Of a stretch of DNA of 56,326 nucleotides, positions 30,551 to 51,858 are shown piece by piece. Below the pieces are notes generated by a model. That model did no database searches and had not been told where the DNA came from. It saw only the letters and a program-made list of their open reading frames with translations. Positions within the stretch are counted from its first letter, which is position 1; the number at the start of each line of letters is the position of its first letter. This DNA comes from a virus. Made by a program: the position numbers and the translations under genes. The stretch spans positions 1 to 56,326 of IMG/VR virus record IMGVR_UViG_3300018083_000033, one strand, 5' to 3'.

Positions 30551-30775
30551 TTACCGGCACCGCGAGCAGGCGATCTTGGAATCCCGCACCTTGATCGGCG
30601 ACGTGCGGAAGAAGGGCCGCGCCTCATGGTAGCTGTCCAGATTCCTTTTGCAGTCTGGGCACTTCACCATCACGAGGCGCTGCGGCTGGTTCCATGTGGG
30701 CAGGGTGGCCGCGGCCGAAAGGCGAGAGAAGGCCCGCGCGAGGATGTCACGAATAGGGGACGCTTTGAGATGCAC
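30551..30775 (-). CDS. Leftward zinc-ribbon-like protein
   Basis: A 74-residue protein, with a shorter alternative start at Met36 (MVKCPDCKRNLDS). CPDCKRNLD...IACSRCR provides two CX2C pairs of a zinc ribbon. The first 34 residues are less convincing, and there is no clear ribosome site for either start. Function is unknown. Confidence 0.45.
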   Translation of the reverse strand: MHLKASPIRDILARAFSRLSAAATLPTWNQPQRLVMVKCPDCKRNLDSYHEARPFFRTSPIKVRDSKIACSRCR

Positions 30776-30913
30776 GCGGCCCAGATGGGCGGGAAGTGTG
30801 CCAGCTCGCCGTGACCGGCCCTGTCACTCGTTCTGGGGATGATGCTGGAGTCCGCTAGCTGCACGCCAAGGCTGAGCTAGTTGTTAAATTTTTTGACCGA
30901 ATTAAGTACCCCT
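30776..30913. other. AT-richer gap before the rightward control-region promoter
   Basis: This stretch contains no convincing gene. It has a local AT-rich segment (GTTGTTAAATTTTTTGACC, 30881-30898) that stands out in a GC-rich genome. It could be an UP-element for the promoter at 30914 or a site of DNA unwinding. Nothing else is seen. Confidence 0.3.
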
Positions 30914-30941
30914 TTGAACGGCTACACCTAGTCGGTATAAC
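30914..30941 (+). promoter_or_regulatory. Sigma-70-type promoter
   Basis: TTGAAC (30914-30919), 16-base spacer, TATAAC (30936-30941). The downstream gene starts at GTG 30988 after a 40-base leader with GGAGG. This is the first rightward promoter of the control region. Confidence 0.55.
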
Positions 30942-30987
30942 TTGCAGTCGCAACTTTTCCACTTTTACCCCTTCGGAGGCTTCCCGC

Positions 30988-31335
30988 GTGCCCCAGCGCC
31001 CCGGCCCGACTCTAGTAGCTTCTTCCTTCGCTCGGCCAGTAAACGCGGACCGGCGTTCGATGCGCGGGTATCGGGTGGTGTTCCGACAGGACCAACTCGA
31101 TGCGTGGTACCTGACGCGGCTGCTACTTCGCCTAAGTCCAGCTCGACGCCGCCAGTTAATGCTTCTGGGGGAATGTTTTCTTGGCACTGTCTCAGTTTGC
31201 CCTAGCGCTGCGCCTCACTGGACCGCAGACGACGCCAACGCCGAAGCGCGAAACCAATACCCGCCCACGCAAGAGACCAGATGGCGGGGTACAGAAATCC
31301 CTCCCTTGGAAGCGCCCAGACGCCGAGTGCGCTGA
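30988..31335 (+). CDS. Basic protein of unknown function
   Basis: A 115-residue protein from GTG 30988, with GGAGG 8 bases upstream and a good promoter before it. The middle (RGYRVVFRQDQLDAWYLTRLLLRLSPARRRQLMLLGECFLGT) is the best-structured part. The last 50 residues are low in hydrophobics. No family is recognised, and start and end parts could be less reliable. Confidence 0.45.
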   Translation: MPQRPGPTLVASSFARPVNADRRSMRGYRVVFRQDQLDAWYLTRLLLRLSPARRRQLMLLGECFLGTVSVCPSAAPHWTADDANAEARNQYPPTQETRWRGTEIPPLEAPRRRVR

Positions 31336-37888: not shown

Positions 37889-38170
37889 ATGGCTCGCTGT
37901 TCCCGGTGCAAGACGTCGTTTCGCACAATGGAGGACGAGGCCGACATGCACGCCTGTCCATCGTGCGGGTTTGGCGAGCCGGAACCGCCACCGCCGGATC
38001 CGAACTGGTGTGTGTGCGGCTGTCACCGCGAGGACCACGAGGCCGGCGTGTGCATCATCGCGGAGGACTGCGGGTGTAGCGGGTATCGGCAGCAGGATGC
38101 GGACGACCTGATTGCGATCGACATTGTGGCCGCGCTAACGGCCAGCTTACAGGCGAGGGGTGGGCGATGA
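37889..38170 (+). CDS. Zinc-ribbon protein
   Basis: A 93-residue protein beginning directly after the previous stop. CSRCKTSF...MHACPSCGF is a zinc ribbon; a second Cys/His set ([26 protein letters not shown]) may bind another metal. Overlaps the Bet gene by 4 bases. Function is unknown. Confidence 0.65.
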
Positions 38171-39093
38171 GTGGAGCACTGGCGATAGTCGAGCCGTCGC
38201 ACGTCGCGACGTTCGACCGTGAACAGGTCGATCTGATTAAGCGGACGATCGCGAAGGGCGCGTCAGACGACGAGTTGGCGCTGTTCCTTCAGAACTGCAA
38301 GCGCACAGGGTTGGACCCGTTCCAGCGGCAGATCTACGCCGTCAAGCGGTGGTCGAGCACGGACAACCGCGAAGTGATGTCCACGCAAGTGAGCATTGAC
38401 GGCTTCCGGCTGGTGGCTGAGCGCACCGGGGCCTACGAAGGGCAGACCGCCCCGCAGTGGTGCGACAAAGACGGGGCGTGGGTGGATGTCTGGCTGAAGC
38501 CTGAGCCGCCCGCGGCGTCCCGTATTGGCGTCTGGAGGCAGGGATTCCGCGAGCCGGCCTACGGGGTGGCCCGCTTCGCCGCCTACGCCCAAACGAAGCG
38601 TGACGGCTCCCTGACGGCTATGTGGCAGCGGATGCCAGACGTGATGATCGCCAAGTGCGCCGAGGCGCTGGCGCTTCGCAAGGCGTTCCCACAGGAACTC
38701 TCCGGCCTCTACACGGGCGACGAGATGGGCCAGGCCGAGAACGGCAAGGCTCAGGCCCTCGTGCCGCCAGCACAGACGCGCATCGCCCTGCCAGCCGGCA
38801 CGGTGCAGATCCTTAAAGTGGACCCGCAGACGGCCCGCGGCGTGTCGTGGTGCGTGGTGACCTACGTCGATGCCGCTGGGGTCGAGAACACGTTGCCGAC
38901 GCCGGCAGACGGCAAGGAAGCAGCCCTCGCGCATTTCGAGGCGCTGCTGCAGGACGGCGAGCCGGTGGTGCTGGAAACGAGCGTGACGCCACGGTCGAAG
39001 AAGACCGTCATCACGAAGGCGACGAAGCACAGCACGATCGAGAACGCCGCGATTGACGCGGAAGTGGTCTCGAAGGATGCCGGCGCGTTCTAA
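38167..39093 (+). CDS. bet: Phage recombination protein Bet (RecT-type annealase)
   Basis: A 308-residue protein. Family hallmarks in order: [49 protein letters not shown], a P-WCD-DG-W conserved box, and [35 protein letters not shown]. It pairs complementary single strands during recombination-dependent replication. The partner 5' exonuclease usually next to it was not recognised. The last 110 residues are variable. Confidence 0.92.
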
Positions 39094-41519: not shown

Positions 41520-41767
41520 AGCACGACAAAGATCAGTCGCGAATGGACAGTTCGTGCCAACTCGCGGGGCAGCGGGCTACCGCGCCGACCGCCGTCGCTG
41601 ATTCGATCAAGTTCCTGCGCCTGCTGTTGTCCGATTGTGGGGAAGGGGCGAACGAGCACGGCTGGCGTGAGTGTCCGCGCTGCCTCGCGTTCGACTTGTT
41701 GCAGAACCGTGACCGCACGGCATTGCGGCTGATTAAGTCGGCCGTCAAGGCGCTGGAGTGCCGTTGA
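41513..41767 (+). CDS. Early protein with repeat-derived N-terminus
   Basis: An 84-residue protein from GTG 41513, with GGGGAAGG upstream. Residues about 9-32 are encoded by repeat copy B. The rest (FLRLLLSDCGEGANEHGWRECPRCLAFDLLQNRDRTALRLIKSAVKALECR) has a CPRC knuckle and a helix. Overlaps the methyltransferase gene. Confidence 0.6.
   Translation: MVEHDKDQSRMDSSCQLAGQRATAPTAVADSIKFLRLLLSDCGEGANEHGWRECPRCLAFDLLQNRDRTALRLIKSAVKALECR
41536..41608 (+). repeat. Dispersed early-region repeat, copy B
   Basis: Matches copy A (36296-36367) over its whole 73 bases; see there. Begins GTCGCGAATGGACAG and ends GTCGCTGATTCGATC. It codes for a different N-terminal frame than copy A up to the indel, and then the same frame (RATA-x-AVADSI). 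Confidence 0.75.
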
Positions 41768-42573
41768 CGCCCTACTATCAAGATGCGGCCGTGACGTTGG
41801 TTCTCGGTGACTGCTTGGATGTCATGTCTGATCTGCCGCCGGTCGATCACGTCATCACAGATCCGCCGTATGCGTTGGTGGTTGTTAACAGCTCGAAGGG
41901 TGCGCCTCGCGGCAGTATCGGCGCGCAAGAGCGCAGGGATCTCGGTTACGCAGGCGTCACCGATGACCAGCGGATAGCGGCCGGGGCGCATATTGGACGG
42001 CTGGCCCAACGATGGGCGCTGGTGTTCTGTGACGCGGAGAGCCTGACGTCGTGGCGTATGGCGCTCGAGGCTGGCGGCATGAAACACGCGCGCATGGGTG
42101 CGTGGGTGTCACCGGCTTGCACGCCGCAATTCACAGGGGACAGGCCTGGAACGGGCTGGGAAGCCTGCGAGATCGCGCACGCATCCAACGGGCGGTGGCG
42201 GTGGAACGGTGGCGGGCAACCGGCTGTGTGGGTGTTCAATCGGCCGATTAACGGCACGCTGGAGCGCCTACAGGCGTCACACCCGACACCGAAGCCGCTG
42301 GCCCTGCTCGACACCATCGTGCAGCAATTCACCGACCCTGGAGACGTAATCCTCGACCCGTTCGCCGGGAGCGGCACGACGCTGATCGCTGCCAAGCGGC
42401 TCGGGCGCAGGGCCATCGGCATTGAGGCGAACGAGCAATACGCCGAAACCATCGCCCGCCGTCTTTCTCAAGGGGCGCTGGAACTATTCGGAGCCTCCGA
42501 TGCGGTAGATCCCCATGCCGGTAGCACGGGAAAGCCGCCCACGCGCGACGGCGATCTTTTGGAATCGGCCTGA
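41758..42573 (+). CDS. DNA (N4-cytosine or N6-adenine) methyltransferase
   Basis: A 271-residue protein; start GTG 41758, or TTG 41764, which overlaps the previous stop. Motif IV is TDPPYAL (about residue 35) and motif I is DPFAGSGTTLIAAKRLGRRAIGIE (about 200-223), so the order is beta-type. It contains no recognised target domain label. It may protect phage DNA from host restriction or mark it for other processes. Confidence 0.9.
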   Translation: MPLTPYYQDAAVTLVLGDCLDVMSDLPPVDHVITDPPYALVVVNSSKGAPRGSIGAQERRDLGYAGVTDDQRIAAGAHIGRLAQRWALVFCDAESLTSWRMALEAGGMKHARMGAWVSPACTPQFTGDRPGTGWEACEIAHASNGRWRWNGGGQPAVWVFNRPINGTLERLQASHPTPKPLALLDTIVQQFTDPGDVILDPFAGSGTTLIAAKRLGRRAIGIEANEQYAETIARRLSQGALELFGASDAVDPHAGSTGKPPTRDGDLLESA

Positions 42574-42690
42574 AGTTGTCGGAGTTCGATCACTAGGTAA
42601 CAGAGAAGAGAAGACCTCTGCGCGGCGAGCCACGAGACGCTGATTCGATGCAACACGCCACCGCGGGGAAGAACGAGCCGGAGCGAACAA

Positions 42691-42924
42691 ATGACCGTGT
42701 ACGTGTTGAGAGATCTCGGCAACGGCGAAGGCCGGAAATATATCTGGTGGCACACGTCAAGCGTGAAGGCCGACCAGCAACACCGCAGGCATGCCGCAAC
42801 GCCATCTCGGTTCTCTCCGCTGTCGGCGCGGGAAGATGTGGCGTTCGCTGAGTTGTCCTCGGACTATGAGCCCATCGCTGGTTGTCTGTCGCCGAACTAC
42901 TGGAAGAGGAAGGACGGGCGGTGA
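42691..42924 (+). CDS. Small basic protein before the structured RNA region
   Basis: A 77-residue protein with CGGAGCG 7 bases before its ATG. VYVLRDLGNGEGRKYIWWHTSSVKADQQHRRHAATPSRFSPLSAREDVAFAELSSDYEPIAGCLSPNYWKRKDGR; no family is recognised. It is the last gene before the 600-base gap with many helices. If the RNA is the product, this gene may be a partner, which is a guess. Confidence 0.5.
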   Translation: MTVYVLRDLGNGEGRKYIWWHTSSVKADQQHRRHAATPSRFSPLSAREDVAFAELSSDYEPIAGCLSPNYWKRKDGR

Positions 42925-43520
42925 CTGGTGACAGACCAGCGAGGGAGCGGGAAGCGCGGCAAGGCGCCGCGTGCTCGTTCACGGGGAACACTCGGCGGAG
43001 CAGACCCTGACAATGCCGGTGAGGTTGTTTACCAAGACCGGCGCCCGTCATAACCGCAGGCTTATGATCTCGGCAAGATCATAAACGGAATGAATTGGAC
43101 AAGGTGGGCTGAGGTGGGAAATACTGGGGCGAACCGAGTCAGGGGTTGTGACCCTGCCCGGTTCATGCTGACAGGCGGTGTGGGACCGCTGCCAGTGCCC
43201 TACGCGATTCTCCCACACAACACATCACAGCGCATCCCGAGCAGCACGGCGGCGGGCGGGAATGCGTGCAAGCCCCTTACCCGGCGACTGCACAGGGGGC
43301 AGCGTGGAGCGCAATCCTAGAGCGCGCAGGGTGCCCCGATCAGCGGGGCCGAGAGTCTGGGAAGCGGAGCGGGCTGTATCCGAGACTCCGCCCGAAGGTG
43401 ACGGCCGAACGCCGAAAGGCATGGCACTGATCTCGAGGTGGCGCTACCCCAGTGCGGCGGTAGCTTTGCCTCGGCTCAAACCAAACAACCGAAGGCATCG
43501 CATACAGAACTAGAGGATTG
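42925..43520 (+). ncRNA. Large structured noncoding RNA candidate
   Basis: No gene fits this 596-base stretch. It contains many perfect helices: GCGCGGC/GCCGCGT (42954-42972), TGCTC/GAGCA (42973-43002), GCCGGT/ACCGGC (43015-43042), TTATGATCT/AGATCATAA (43062-43084), GAACCG/CGGTTC around CAGGG/CCCTG (43131-43164), GTGTGGGA/TCCCACAC (43178-43218), GCCCCG/CGGGGC (43333-43349), GAGTCT/AGACTC (43353-43388), GCC-GAAA-GGC (43411-43420) and GCACTG/CAGTGC (43424-43455). Size, helix density, GNRA loop and phage location recall large phage RNAs such as GOLLD or ROOL; I cannot show homology. AGAGG at the end serves the next gene. Confidence 0.6.
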
Positions 43521-43859
43521 ATGCTGCCAGAGTTTGAGGAACGCCGAGCAGTGGAACGGAGACGTGAGGCCGACGCGAACTTCCTGCGGTTCTGGGAGGC
43601 CTACCCCAGACGGCAAGCCAGGATCGACGCGGTGAAGGCGTGGAACCAGATTCGGCCGGATGCTGGAACCGTGGAGGCCATCTTAGCGGCCTTGGAATGG
43701 CAGCGGGAGACATGGGACAGCCCACAGTTCATTCCGTTACCAGCCTCGTATCTGCGCGGGCATCGCTGGGAGGACGAGCGGCCGGAGCAGCCCGCCAGCA
43801 AGTCCATGAGTGCGGGAGCCGCGGCGGTGTTTCGGGTGTTAGGAGGGAAGGCGTCGTGA
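43521..43859 (+). CDS. Replication protein-like domain (O-like C-terminal part)
   Basis: A 112-residue protein from ATG 43521. FLRFWEAYPRRQARIDAVKAWNQIRPDAGTVEAILAALEWQRETWDSPQFIPLPASYLRGHRWEDE matches the C-terminal region of many phage replication initiators (FW-AYPRK--R--A-KAW...FIP-P-TWL---RW-DE). The N-terminal DNA-binding domain of a full O-type protein is absent, so it may be a stand-alone helicase-recruiting module. Confidence 0.75.
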   Translation: MLPEFEERRAVERRREADANFLRFWEAYPRRQARIDAVKAWNQIRPDAGTVEAILAALEWQRETWDSPQFIPLPASYLRGHRWEDERPEQPASKSMSAGAAAVFRVLGGKAS

Positions 43860-50307: not shown

Positions 50308-51161
50308 GTGAAACATCGGTGATTGAGGGCGTGACGTTCGACGGCCGCGTGAACACCGACGACGCGCAACTCCTCGCGAATATCACATCCTCGATCCGCC
50401 GCGGGCATCCGCAGATTAAGCCGCAGGCCTTGCAGCAGGACGCCGTGGCGCTTGTGTGCGGTGGGCCATCACTGGAATCCACCAAGTATGAACTGCTCGG
50501 GCTGATAGCCGCTGGCTCCAAGGTGGTCACCGTCAACGGGGCCTATCAGTGGTGCGTGGAGCGCAACATCTTCCCGGCGATGCAGATTGTGATGGACGCA
50601 CGGCCGACCAACGCGCGCTTTCTCGATCCCGCCCTGCCGCGGTGCCATTACGCGCTCGCCAGCCAGTGCCACCCAACGCTCTGGGATGCGGTTGAGGGCC
50701 GACCGAACGTCTGGATCTACCACGTTGGGGCCAGCGATGAGGAATCAGCCGCCAAGGCGCTGCTCGATGCGTTCTATCTGAAGCAGTGGCACGGCATCGG
50801 CGGCGGGACCACGGTGGGCACCAGAGCGATCGCCATGCTCAGAACCTTGGGCTATGTGCGCTTCGACGTGTTCGGGATGGATTGCTGCTGGATGGGCGAT
50901 GCCCATCACGCCTACCAACAGCCCGAGAACGACATCGACAAGCGGGTGGCGATCACGATTGAGCCCACGGGGCACCCTGAGCTCGCGCGCACGTTTCAGT
51001 GTGCGCCGTGGCATGGCAAGCAGTTGAGCGATCTGATTGAGATGGTGCGGTATCACGGGCACCAGTTTTTGTTGAACCTGCACGGGGACGGGATGGCGGC
51101 GTATGCGCTTCGGGCGAGCGCGGATGTAGTAGCTAACGAAGCGGCGCAGGCCGCGTCATAG
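50304..51161 (+). CDS. DUF115 / MptE-like protein
   Basis: A 285-residue protein from ATG 50304 (ATGA overlap). VALVCGGPSLESTKYELLGLIAAGSKVVTVNGAYQWCVERNIFPAMQIVMDARPTNARFL is the hallmark of DUF115: G-G-PSL, then a VN---- and D-R pattern. VGTRAIAMLRTLGYVRFDVFGMDCCWMGDAHHAYQQ is also conserved. Related proteins act in flagellin or surface glycan transfer (Maf type) or pterin synthesis (MptE). Phage role is unknown. Confidence 0.75.
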   Translation: MSETSVIEGVTFDGRVNTDDAQLLANITSSIRRGHPQIKPQALQQDAVALVCGGPSLESTKYELLGLIAAGSKVVTVNGAYQWCVERNIFPAMQIVMDARPTNARFLDPALPRCHYALASQCHPTLWDAVEGRPNVWIYHVGASDEESAAKALLDAFYLKQWHGIGGGTTVGTRAIAMLRTLGYVRFDVFGMDCCWMGDAHHAYQQPENDIDKRVAITIEPTGHPELARTFQCAPWHGKQLSDLIEMVRYHGHQFLLNLHGDGMAAYALRASADVVANEAAQAAS

Positions 51162-51170
51162 GAGACAGGC

Positions 51171-51858
51171 ATGGCAGCAGGCGCTTGGAACGTGTATAGC
51201 CTCAACTAACGCGGGGGCACCACGTTGAGAGACGTGGATGCGAACTGGCTCTGATTGACTTGAACCCTGTGATGGGAACAAGGGCGAAGGCGGGAGATGC
51301 AACCGCCACGCTGAGAGACTAAGCGAGCCGGCACCCTTCGGGGTGATGCGATAGTCCGAGCTCACGGGAAACCAACCGTGAGAGGCAGTAGAAATAGCTG
51401 CCCGCCATCAGACGACCGATGGTCCACAAGTAACAGCAGGCGCGAAGAAGAAGATCGGCAACGCTACGCTCTCGCTCGCATCGACCGTGTATCGGATGAC
51501 GCTCCACACGAGCGCGTCGAACGCGGCCACGGTGTCGCTGGGCGTGTATGCCTCGGTGACTGGCGAAGTGTCCGAGGCCAACGGTTACTCGTCCAGCGGT
51601 AAGGCGCTGACGGGTGAGGTGTGGACGGTGGGTGCCTCGGCCACACAATACAAATTTGACACGGACGATGCGTTCTGGTCGGCCAACGCGGGCACCATCG
51701 CGAATATCAAATACGCGGTGATCTGGATCTCTGGTGCATCGGCGAATGGTCGGCATCTGCTGTGCCGGTCGACGTTGAGCACATCGCAGTTCTCAATCTC
51801 AAGTGGAAATCGCCTGACCATAACCATGAATGCGTCGGGAGTTTTGACTTTAGTTTGA
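51171..51858 (+). CDS. Tail/structural protein gene split by a group I intron
   Basis: Exon 1 is 51171-51202 and exon 2 is 51441-51858. Splicing gives 149 residues beginning MAAGAWNVYSLAKKKIGNAT, then LSLASTVYRMTLHTSASNAA. This fits a common phage tail protein start (MAAGAW--Y--AKK-IG). Without splicing, translation stops after MAAGAWNVYSLN at 51207. RBS AGGAGAC lies before the ATG. The downstream part is a beta-rich, about 125-residue fold. Removal of 238 bases restores the frame, as 32 + 418 = 450. Confidence 0.85.
51203..51440 (+). ncRNA. Group I intron (238 bases, no internal gene)
   Basis: Core helices can be read directly: P1 GCCU/GGGC with the U-G pair at the 5' site (U51202, G215 in 512xx numbering); P2 CCACG/CGTGG (51220-51237); P3 CTGGCTC/GAGCCGG (51245-51251 with 51325-51331); P6-like GGCGG/CCGCC (51289-51307); P7 GACTA/TAGTC (51317-51321 with 51352-51356); P8 CACCC-TTCG-GGGTG (51332-51345); P9 CTCACGG/CCGTGAG (51361-51382); two more 3' hairpins at 51384-51402 and 51405-51422. 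The terminal G is 51440, and P10 pairs CGCG (51210-51213) with the exon 2 start CGCG (51441-51444). Confidence 0.92.

Follow-up and report, generated by a model that had tools for sequence, protein, structure and literature searches.

What occupies the stretch of some 600 bases that separates a 77-residue reading frame from a replication initiator gene in the early region of this phage, and does it encode a large structured RNA? The window analysed here, a virus record 56,326 bases long, has the layout of a tailed phage, with terminase, portal-like, capsid-like and tape-measure-like genes in its first part (apart from terminase, these structural names were read from gene order and length). In the early region, RecT (38167-39093) is followed by an HNH-like gene, a Holliday-junction resolvase, a DNA methyltransferase (N6_N4_Mtase; 41758-42573, plus strand; PF01555, E 1.7e-27; phrog_67), the 77-residue ORF (42691-42924, plus strand), the stretch itself at 42925-43520 and the initiator gene. 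The 77-residue ORF, which comes from the ORF list and sets the upstream boundary of the gap, has an in-frame codon score near 0.1, belongs to no Pfam or PHROGs family and has no relative in IMG/VR.

A gap in coding within the replication module

The original prediction held that positions 42925-43520 code for nothing plausible, and codon score, GC periodicity and family searches confirm both the coordinates and the lack of coding. The best of the six frames has codon log-odds at or below about zero throughout, the three-base GC periodicity is 0.02-0.16 (values in the genes on either side go up to 0.38), and the ORFs inside the stretch, including one of 111 residues at 43178-43513, found no match when searched against Pfam and PHROGs. 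An unrecognised short gene in an unusual frame is very improbable here, even in the case of this longest example: the ORF stays open over 111 codons and its stop lies 7 bases ahead of the initiator gene, but its codon score in its own frame is at chance level, it has no family, and its product is rich in Arg and Ser, as GC-rich noncoding DNA would give. Coding is genuinely interrupted here, and in an unusual place. Low coding signal is also seen at 30700-31150 and 51150-51850 of the window, the latter with a plus-strand folding z of -2.3, similar to that of 42925-43520.

An initiator gene that encodes the C-terminal domain only

Immediately downstream, and preceded by a Shine-Dalgarno-like AGAGG at 43511-43515, lies a plus-strand gene of 113 codons (43521-43859; the ORF spans 43518-43859, with the ATG at 43521 as the probable start). 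Its product matches three initiator families, each in its C-terminal part only: phrog_270 (residues 164-264 of 383; 1.8e-16), phrog_9474 (169-260 of 288; 1.5e-15) and phrog_9327 (1.9e-15). Judged from these matches, what the gene encodes is a phage replication initiator of the O / primosomal-I type reduced to its C-terminal domain. Six-frame searches upstream of 43521 found no initiator N-terminal part, phrog_270 and phrog_9474 matching at the C-domain end only.

Among relatives of the RecT protein, one phage (L074) proved syntenic and has no counterpart of the stretch. Its RecT is 77% identical, and RecT, HNH, methyltransferase, small ORF and initiator follow one another as they do in the window. 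The initiator of L074 is full length (300 aa), and its N-terminal domain (about 535 bp) sits where the window has the noncoding stretch; the C-domain of the window is 47% identical to that of L074 and 55% identical to that of L002. The N-domain is fused to the C-domain in nearly all of 80 C-domain relatives. The C-domain stands alone in a sub-group that resembles the window's protein (QF[IV]PLPA..LRG.RW.DE and relatives) and is made up of L186, L187/L205, L204, L206, L209-L215, L219, L220 and the window, and also in L125, which falls outside the sub-group. In some of these phages (L186, L205 and L204) noncoding stretches of about 390-500 nt lie upstream in the same module. A crude census of the gaps upstream of stand-alone and fused initiator genes found those of the former not to be longer; the gene finder used for it also missed the gap in the window. 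Initiator C-domains encoded alone, some of them beside long noncoding stretches, are a recurring oddity. The partners of the stand-alone domains vary: L204 has a Mom-family gene (Pfam PF25680) and L205 an HNH-like gene, and in L125 a helix-turn-helix-like ORF lies next to the C-domain (the HNH and helix-turn-helix names are our own reading of the sequences).

Helices and folding lie close to chance

The stretch had been singled out as an ornate RNA candidate, and the helices named in that proposal are all present. GAACCG..CAGGG..CCCTG..CGGTTC form a nested pair at 43131-43164, inside minus-strand windows with a z of -4.5; GTGTGGGA/TCCCACAC is an 8-bp helix with a 25-nt loop at 43178-43218; and GAGTCT at 43353 can pair with AGACTC, which ends at 43388. 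The longest dyad is a 9-bp perfect hairpin at 43062-43084 (TTATGATCT-CGGCA-AGATCATAA), extended on the minus strand by one G-U pair and one further pair. Towards the initiator gene, a nested terminal hairpin can be read from the plus strand at 43433-43476 (CGAGG..GCTACC..GGTAGC..CCTCG), followed by an unstructured run and then the AGAGG. As for the predicted GNRA loop, a GAAA does occur at 43414-43417, but its stem is just 3 bp long.

What did not hold is the claim that this structure is exceptional, as the number of helices and the folding are only slightly above chance. Perfect stems of at least 6 bp number 12 in 42925-43520 against 7.7±2.8 in dinucleotide shuffles (17 of 200 shuffles reach 12), while those of at least 7 bp number 2 against 2.0±1.4 in 200 such shuffles. 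The stretch as a whole folds with a z of -1.9 to -2.1 on both strands, a value that 12.5% of random 596-nt windows from the same phage equal or undercut. Local windows of 120 nt give a z of -3.9 on the plus strand (42871-42990) and of -4.5 on the minus strand (43051-43200), both past the 1% level of this phage, with about 30 windows inspected. Several of the listed helices are mutually exclusive (for instance GAGTCT/AGACTC and GCGGAG/CTCCGC), and in the hairpins at 43062-43084 and 43131-43164 G-U pairs form on the minus strand where the plus strand has A-C mismatches. Because the strongest local folding falls on different strands and the G-U gains are confined to the minus strand, the data fit a single plus-strand RNA of 600 nt poorly. 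The best explanation is that the hairpins are largely what DNA of 63% GC yields, and the lesson is that helices counted by eye are insufficient evidence in GC-rich noncoding DNA. The minus-strand segment at 43051-43200, opposite to the genes, is the strongest local folding of the early region (z -4.5) and would fit an antisense transcript.

Searches for known RNAs and for homologues

Rfam at gathering thresholds returned 0 matches over the whole 56,326-base window, and a permissively filtered search of 42500-43800, with E values as high as 10 allowed, gave chance miRNA and snoRNA matches only. A tRNA search of the 56-kb window found none. As far as Rfam can tell, GOLLD, ROOL, OLE and HEARO are excluded, and the proposed likeness to GOLLD and ROOL found no support past size and phage origin.

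DNA similarity searches in phages and plasmids found no homologue of 42925-43520, and a DNA search of 36 terminase-related records gave only chance-like matches of 11-24 bp. Several further candidates were rejected: a match in L079 lies, by our reading of the sequence, in a repetitive contig start just ahead of RecT, a match to L186 1-116 is the end of a coding gene, and the pattern GCCGAAAGGCATGGCA gave 22 matches over IMG/VR, all unrelated. A 14-base motif, GCGGTAGATCCCCA, recurs in three terminase-related phages (window 42502-42515, L009 5190, L014 5255 and, with 1 mismatch, L014 8058); at up to 1 mismatch it has four sites where about 0.5 are expected from shuffled patterns. Most of these sites, when translated in frame, give a DAVDP[HQ]-like peptide close to the end of an ORF; the motif is perhaps a regulatory or recombination site that the three phages have in common.

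Within the limits of the scan, one possible homologue of the stretch was found, in L186, a phage reached through its stand-alone C-domain, and the similarity is borderline. It consists of a 66-column core (window 43297-43361, plus strand; L186 325-389) in which the blocks CAGCGTGG, CCTAGAGCGCGNAGGGT and AGTCTGGG, with a variable hairpin between the second and the third, occur in the same order and at close to the same spacing, with 32 of 32 block positions shared. In L186 the blocks sit in a noncoding stretch of its own (about 130-518) upstream of its replication genes; this stretch folds with a z of -3.3, and an Rfam search of it found nothing.

Competing readings of the stretch

The L186 similarity is the main argument for a new structured noncoding RNA, or a structured leader, of phage replication modules. 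In such an RNA the helix CCUAGA/UCUGGG would be the core, closing off GCGCGNAGGGU and a variable hairpin, and further hairpins would lie at the periphery; its target in cis would be either the gene for the initiator C-domain or the origin. In both phages the second and third blocks are complementary (in the window CCTAGA at 43316-43321 is able to pair with TCTGGG at 43356-43361), hairpins of differing sequence lie between and beside the blocks, and of the 11 IMG/VR contigs that carry the core motif only L186 has the flanking blocks and is a plausible relative. Against shuffled controls the similarity is reached in 4 to 12 of 6,000 cases. Real sequence is a harder comparison, in which it ranks 41st to 301st of 12,620 segments depending on the scoring (p 0.003-0.02); among 300 GC-matched segments, 2 reach the same similarity, and including structure profiles brings no improvement. 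The core blocks were picked after the alignment had been seen, and since three such loci were inspected, we treat the similarity as a lead. The core is known from two sequences only, and the other noncoding stretches of the stand-alone group show nothing similar. A covariance model built from the window and L186 (R1), run over the loci and 41 records, recovered L186 and no third member, and its one additional match, of 38 bits, is false, falling in the coding DNA of a moeB/ThiF-like gene, which shows that the model lacks specificity. We consider a structured RNA or leader of this kind unlikely. A more ambitious version, in which the window and L186 are so far the two members of a new class of structured phage RNA, with the core CCUAGA/UCUGGG enclosing GCGCGNAGGGU, that accompanies an initiator that lost its DNA-binding N-domain and perhaps does part of its work, we regard as rather improbable. 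Were the stretch a conserved RNA that goes with such a reduced initiator, this would be a phage in which recognition of the origin or control of the initiator had passed to RNA.

A decayed protein gene, the outcome that the original prediction had itself named as its refutation, fared no better. The stretch would here be the frameshifted remains of the initiator N-terminal domain, or of another early gene, with the C-domain surviving as a separate gene; it does occupy the place of the N-domain, as the comparison with L074 makes clear. When the stretch was compared with 73 N-domains and frameshifts were allowed for, a single domain stood out: that of L118 (DUF1376 type) matches 43178-43359 with a z of about 6, a value reached by 1 of 150 real control segments. 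The match, however, covers only the poorly conserved, composition-biased tail of that domain, and the conserved DUF1376 core is absent. With the threshold relaxed to E 10, PF07120 still does not match the stretch, and a profile made from 26 DUF1376-type domains scores -1.1 bits on it; comparison with the N-domains of L074 and L002 does not rise above shuffled controls, and phrog_270 and phrog_9474 detect no N-domain remains. With the profile tests negative and a single borderline pairwise match, a decayed N-domain is no better supported than the L186 similarity and is at most a lead; we consider it improbable. That two incompatible leads, L186 and L118, both appear at about the 1% level is a sign of how many comparisons were made.

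The reading we prefer, at slightly less than even probability, is that 42925-43520 is an untranslated intergenic leader or control region belonging to the replication module; going by its position, it may also form part of the origin. This is argued from the noncoding character of the stretch together with the AGAGG and the C-domain-only gene that come after it, from the N-domain that L074 carries in the same place, and from the recurrence of C-domain-alone genes, several with upstream noncoding stretches, in combination with structure only slightly above chance. In this reading the stretch would be transcribed as the 5' leader of the stand-alone gene, and the C-domain would work with another DNA-binding partner; the local dyads at 43062-43084 and 43131-43164 could serve as hairpins of the leader or as sites where proteins bind. 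A search of the stretch for an iteron array found only two-copy repeats at chance level; no AT-rich unwinding stretch was found (GC is 0.55-0.71 throughout), GC skew makes no turn here, and a promoter and terminator scan gave nothing convincing. With repeats, AT-rich DNA and a skew turn absent, an origin at this locus would be one without its usual signs, proposed from position alone.

Comparison with known systems

ARRPOF RNA is a plasmid-replication-associated RNA, and the stretch likewise is noncoding and adjoins a replication gene; the resemblance is one of place only, as the stretch has no Rfam match. GOLLD and ROOL frequently lie close to tRNA islands, and their structures are supported by covariation (PMC12286853). 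A tRNA in the neighbourhood is common but not universal. Like ROOL, which is described as very complex in structure, the stretch is phage-borne, noncoding and of about the same length (PMC12286853), but it has no Rfam match and no nearby tRNA and sits within a replication module. With GOLLD, a large phage-borne noncoding RNA (PMC12286853), it shares the phage setting, whereas it is shorter, has no tRNA nearby and does not match the conserved 3' half of GOLLD in Rfam. The closest parallel in gene content is offered by initiator modules of the O / DUF1376 / primosomal-I kind: the order RecT, HNH, methyltransferase and initiator is that of L074, and the C-domain is common to both; what differs is that the window encodes the C-domain only and is noncoding where the N-domain would lie.
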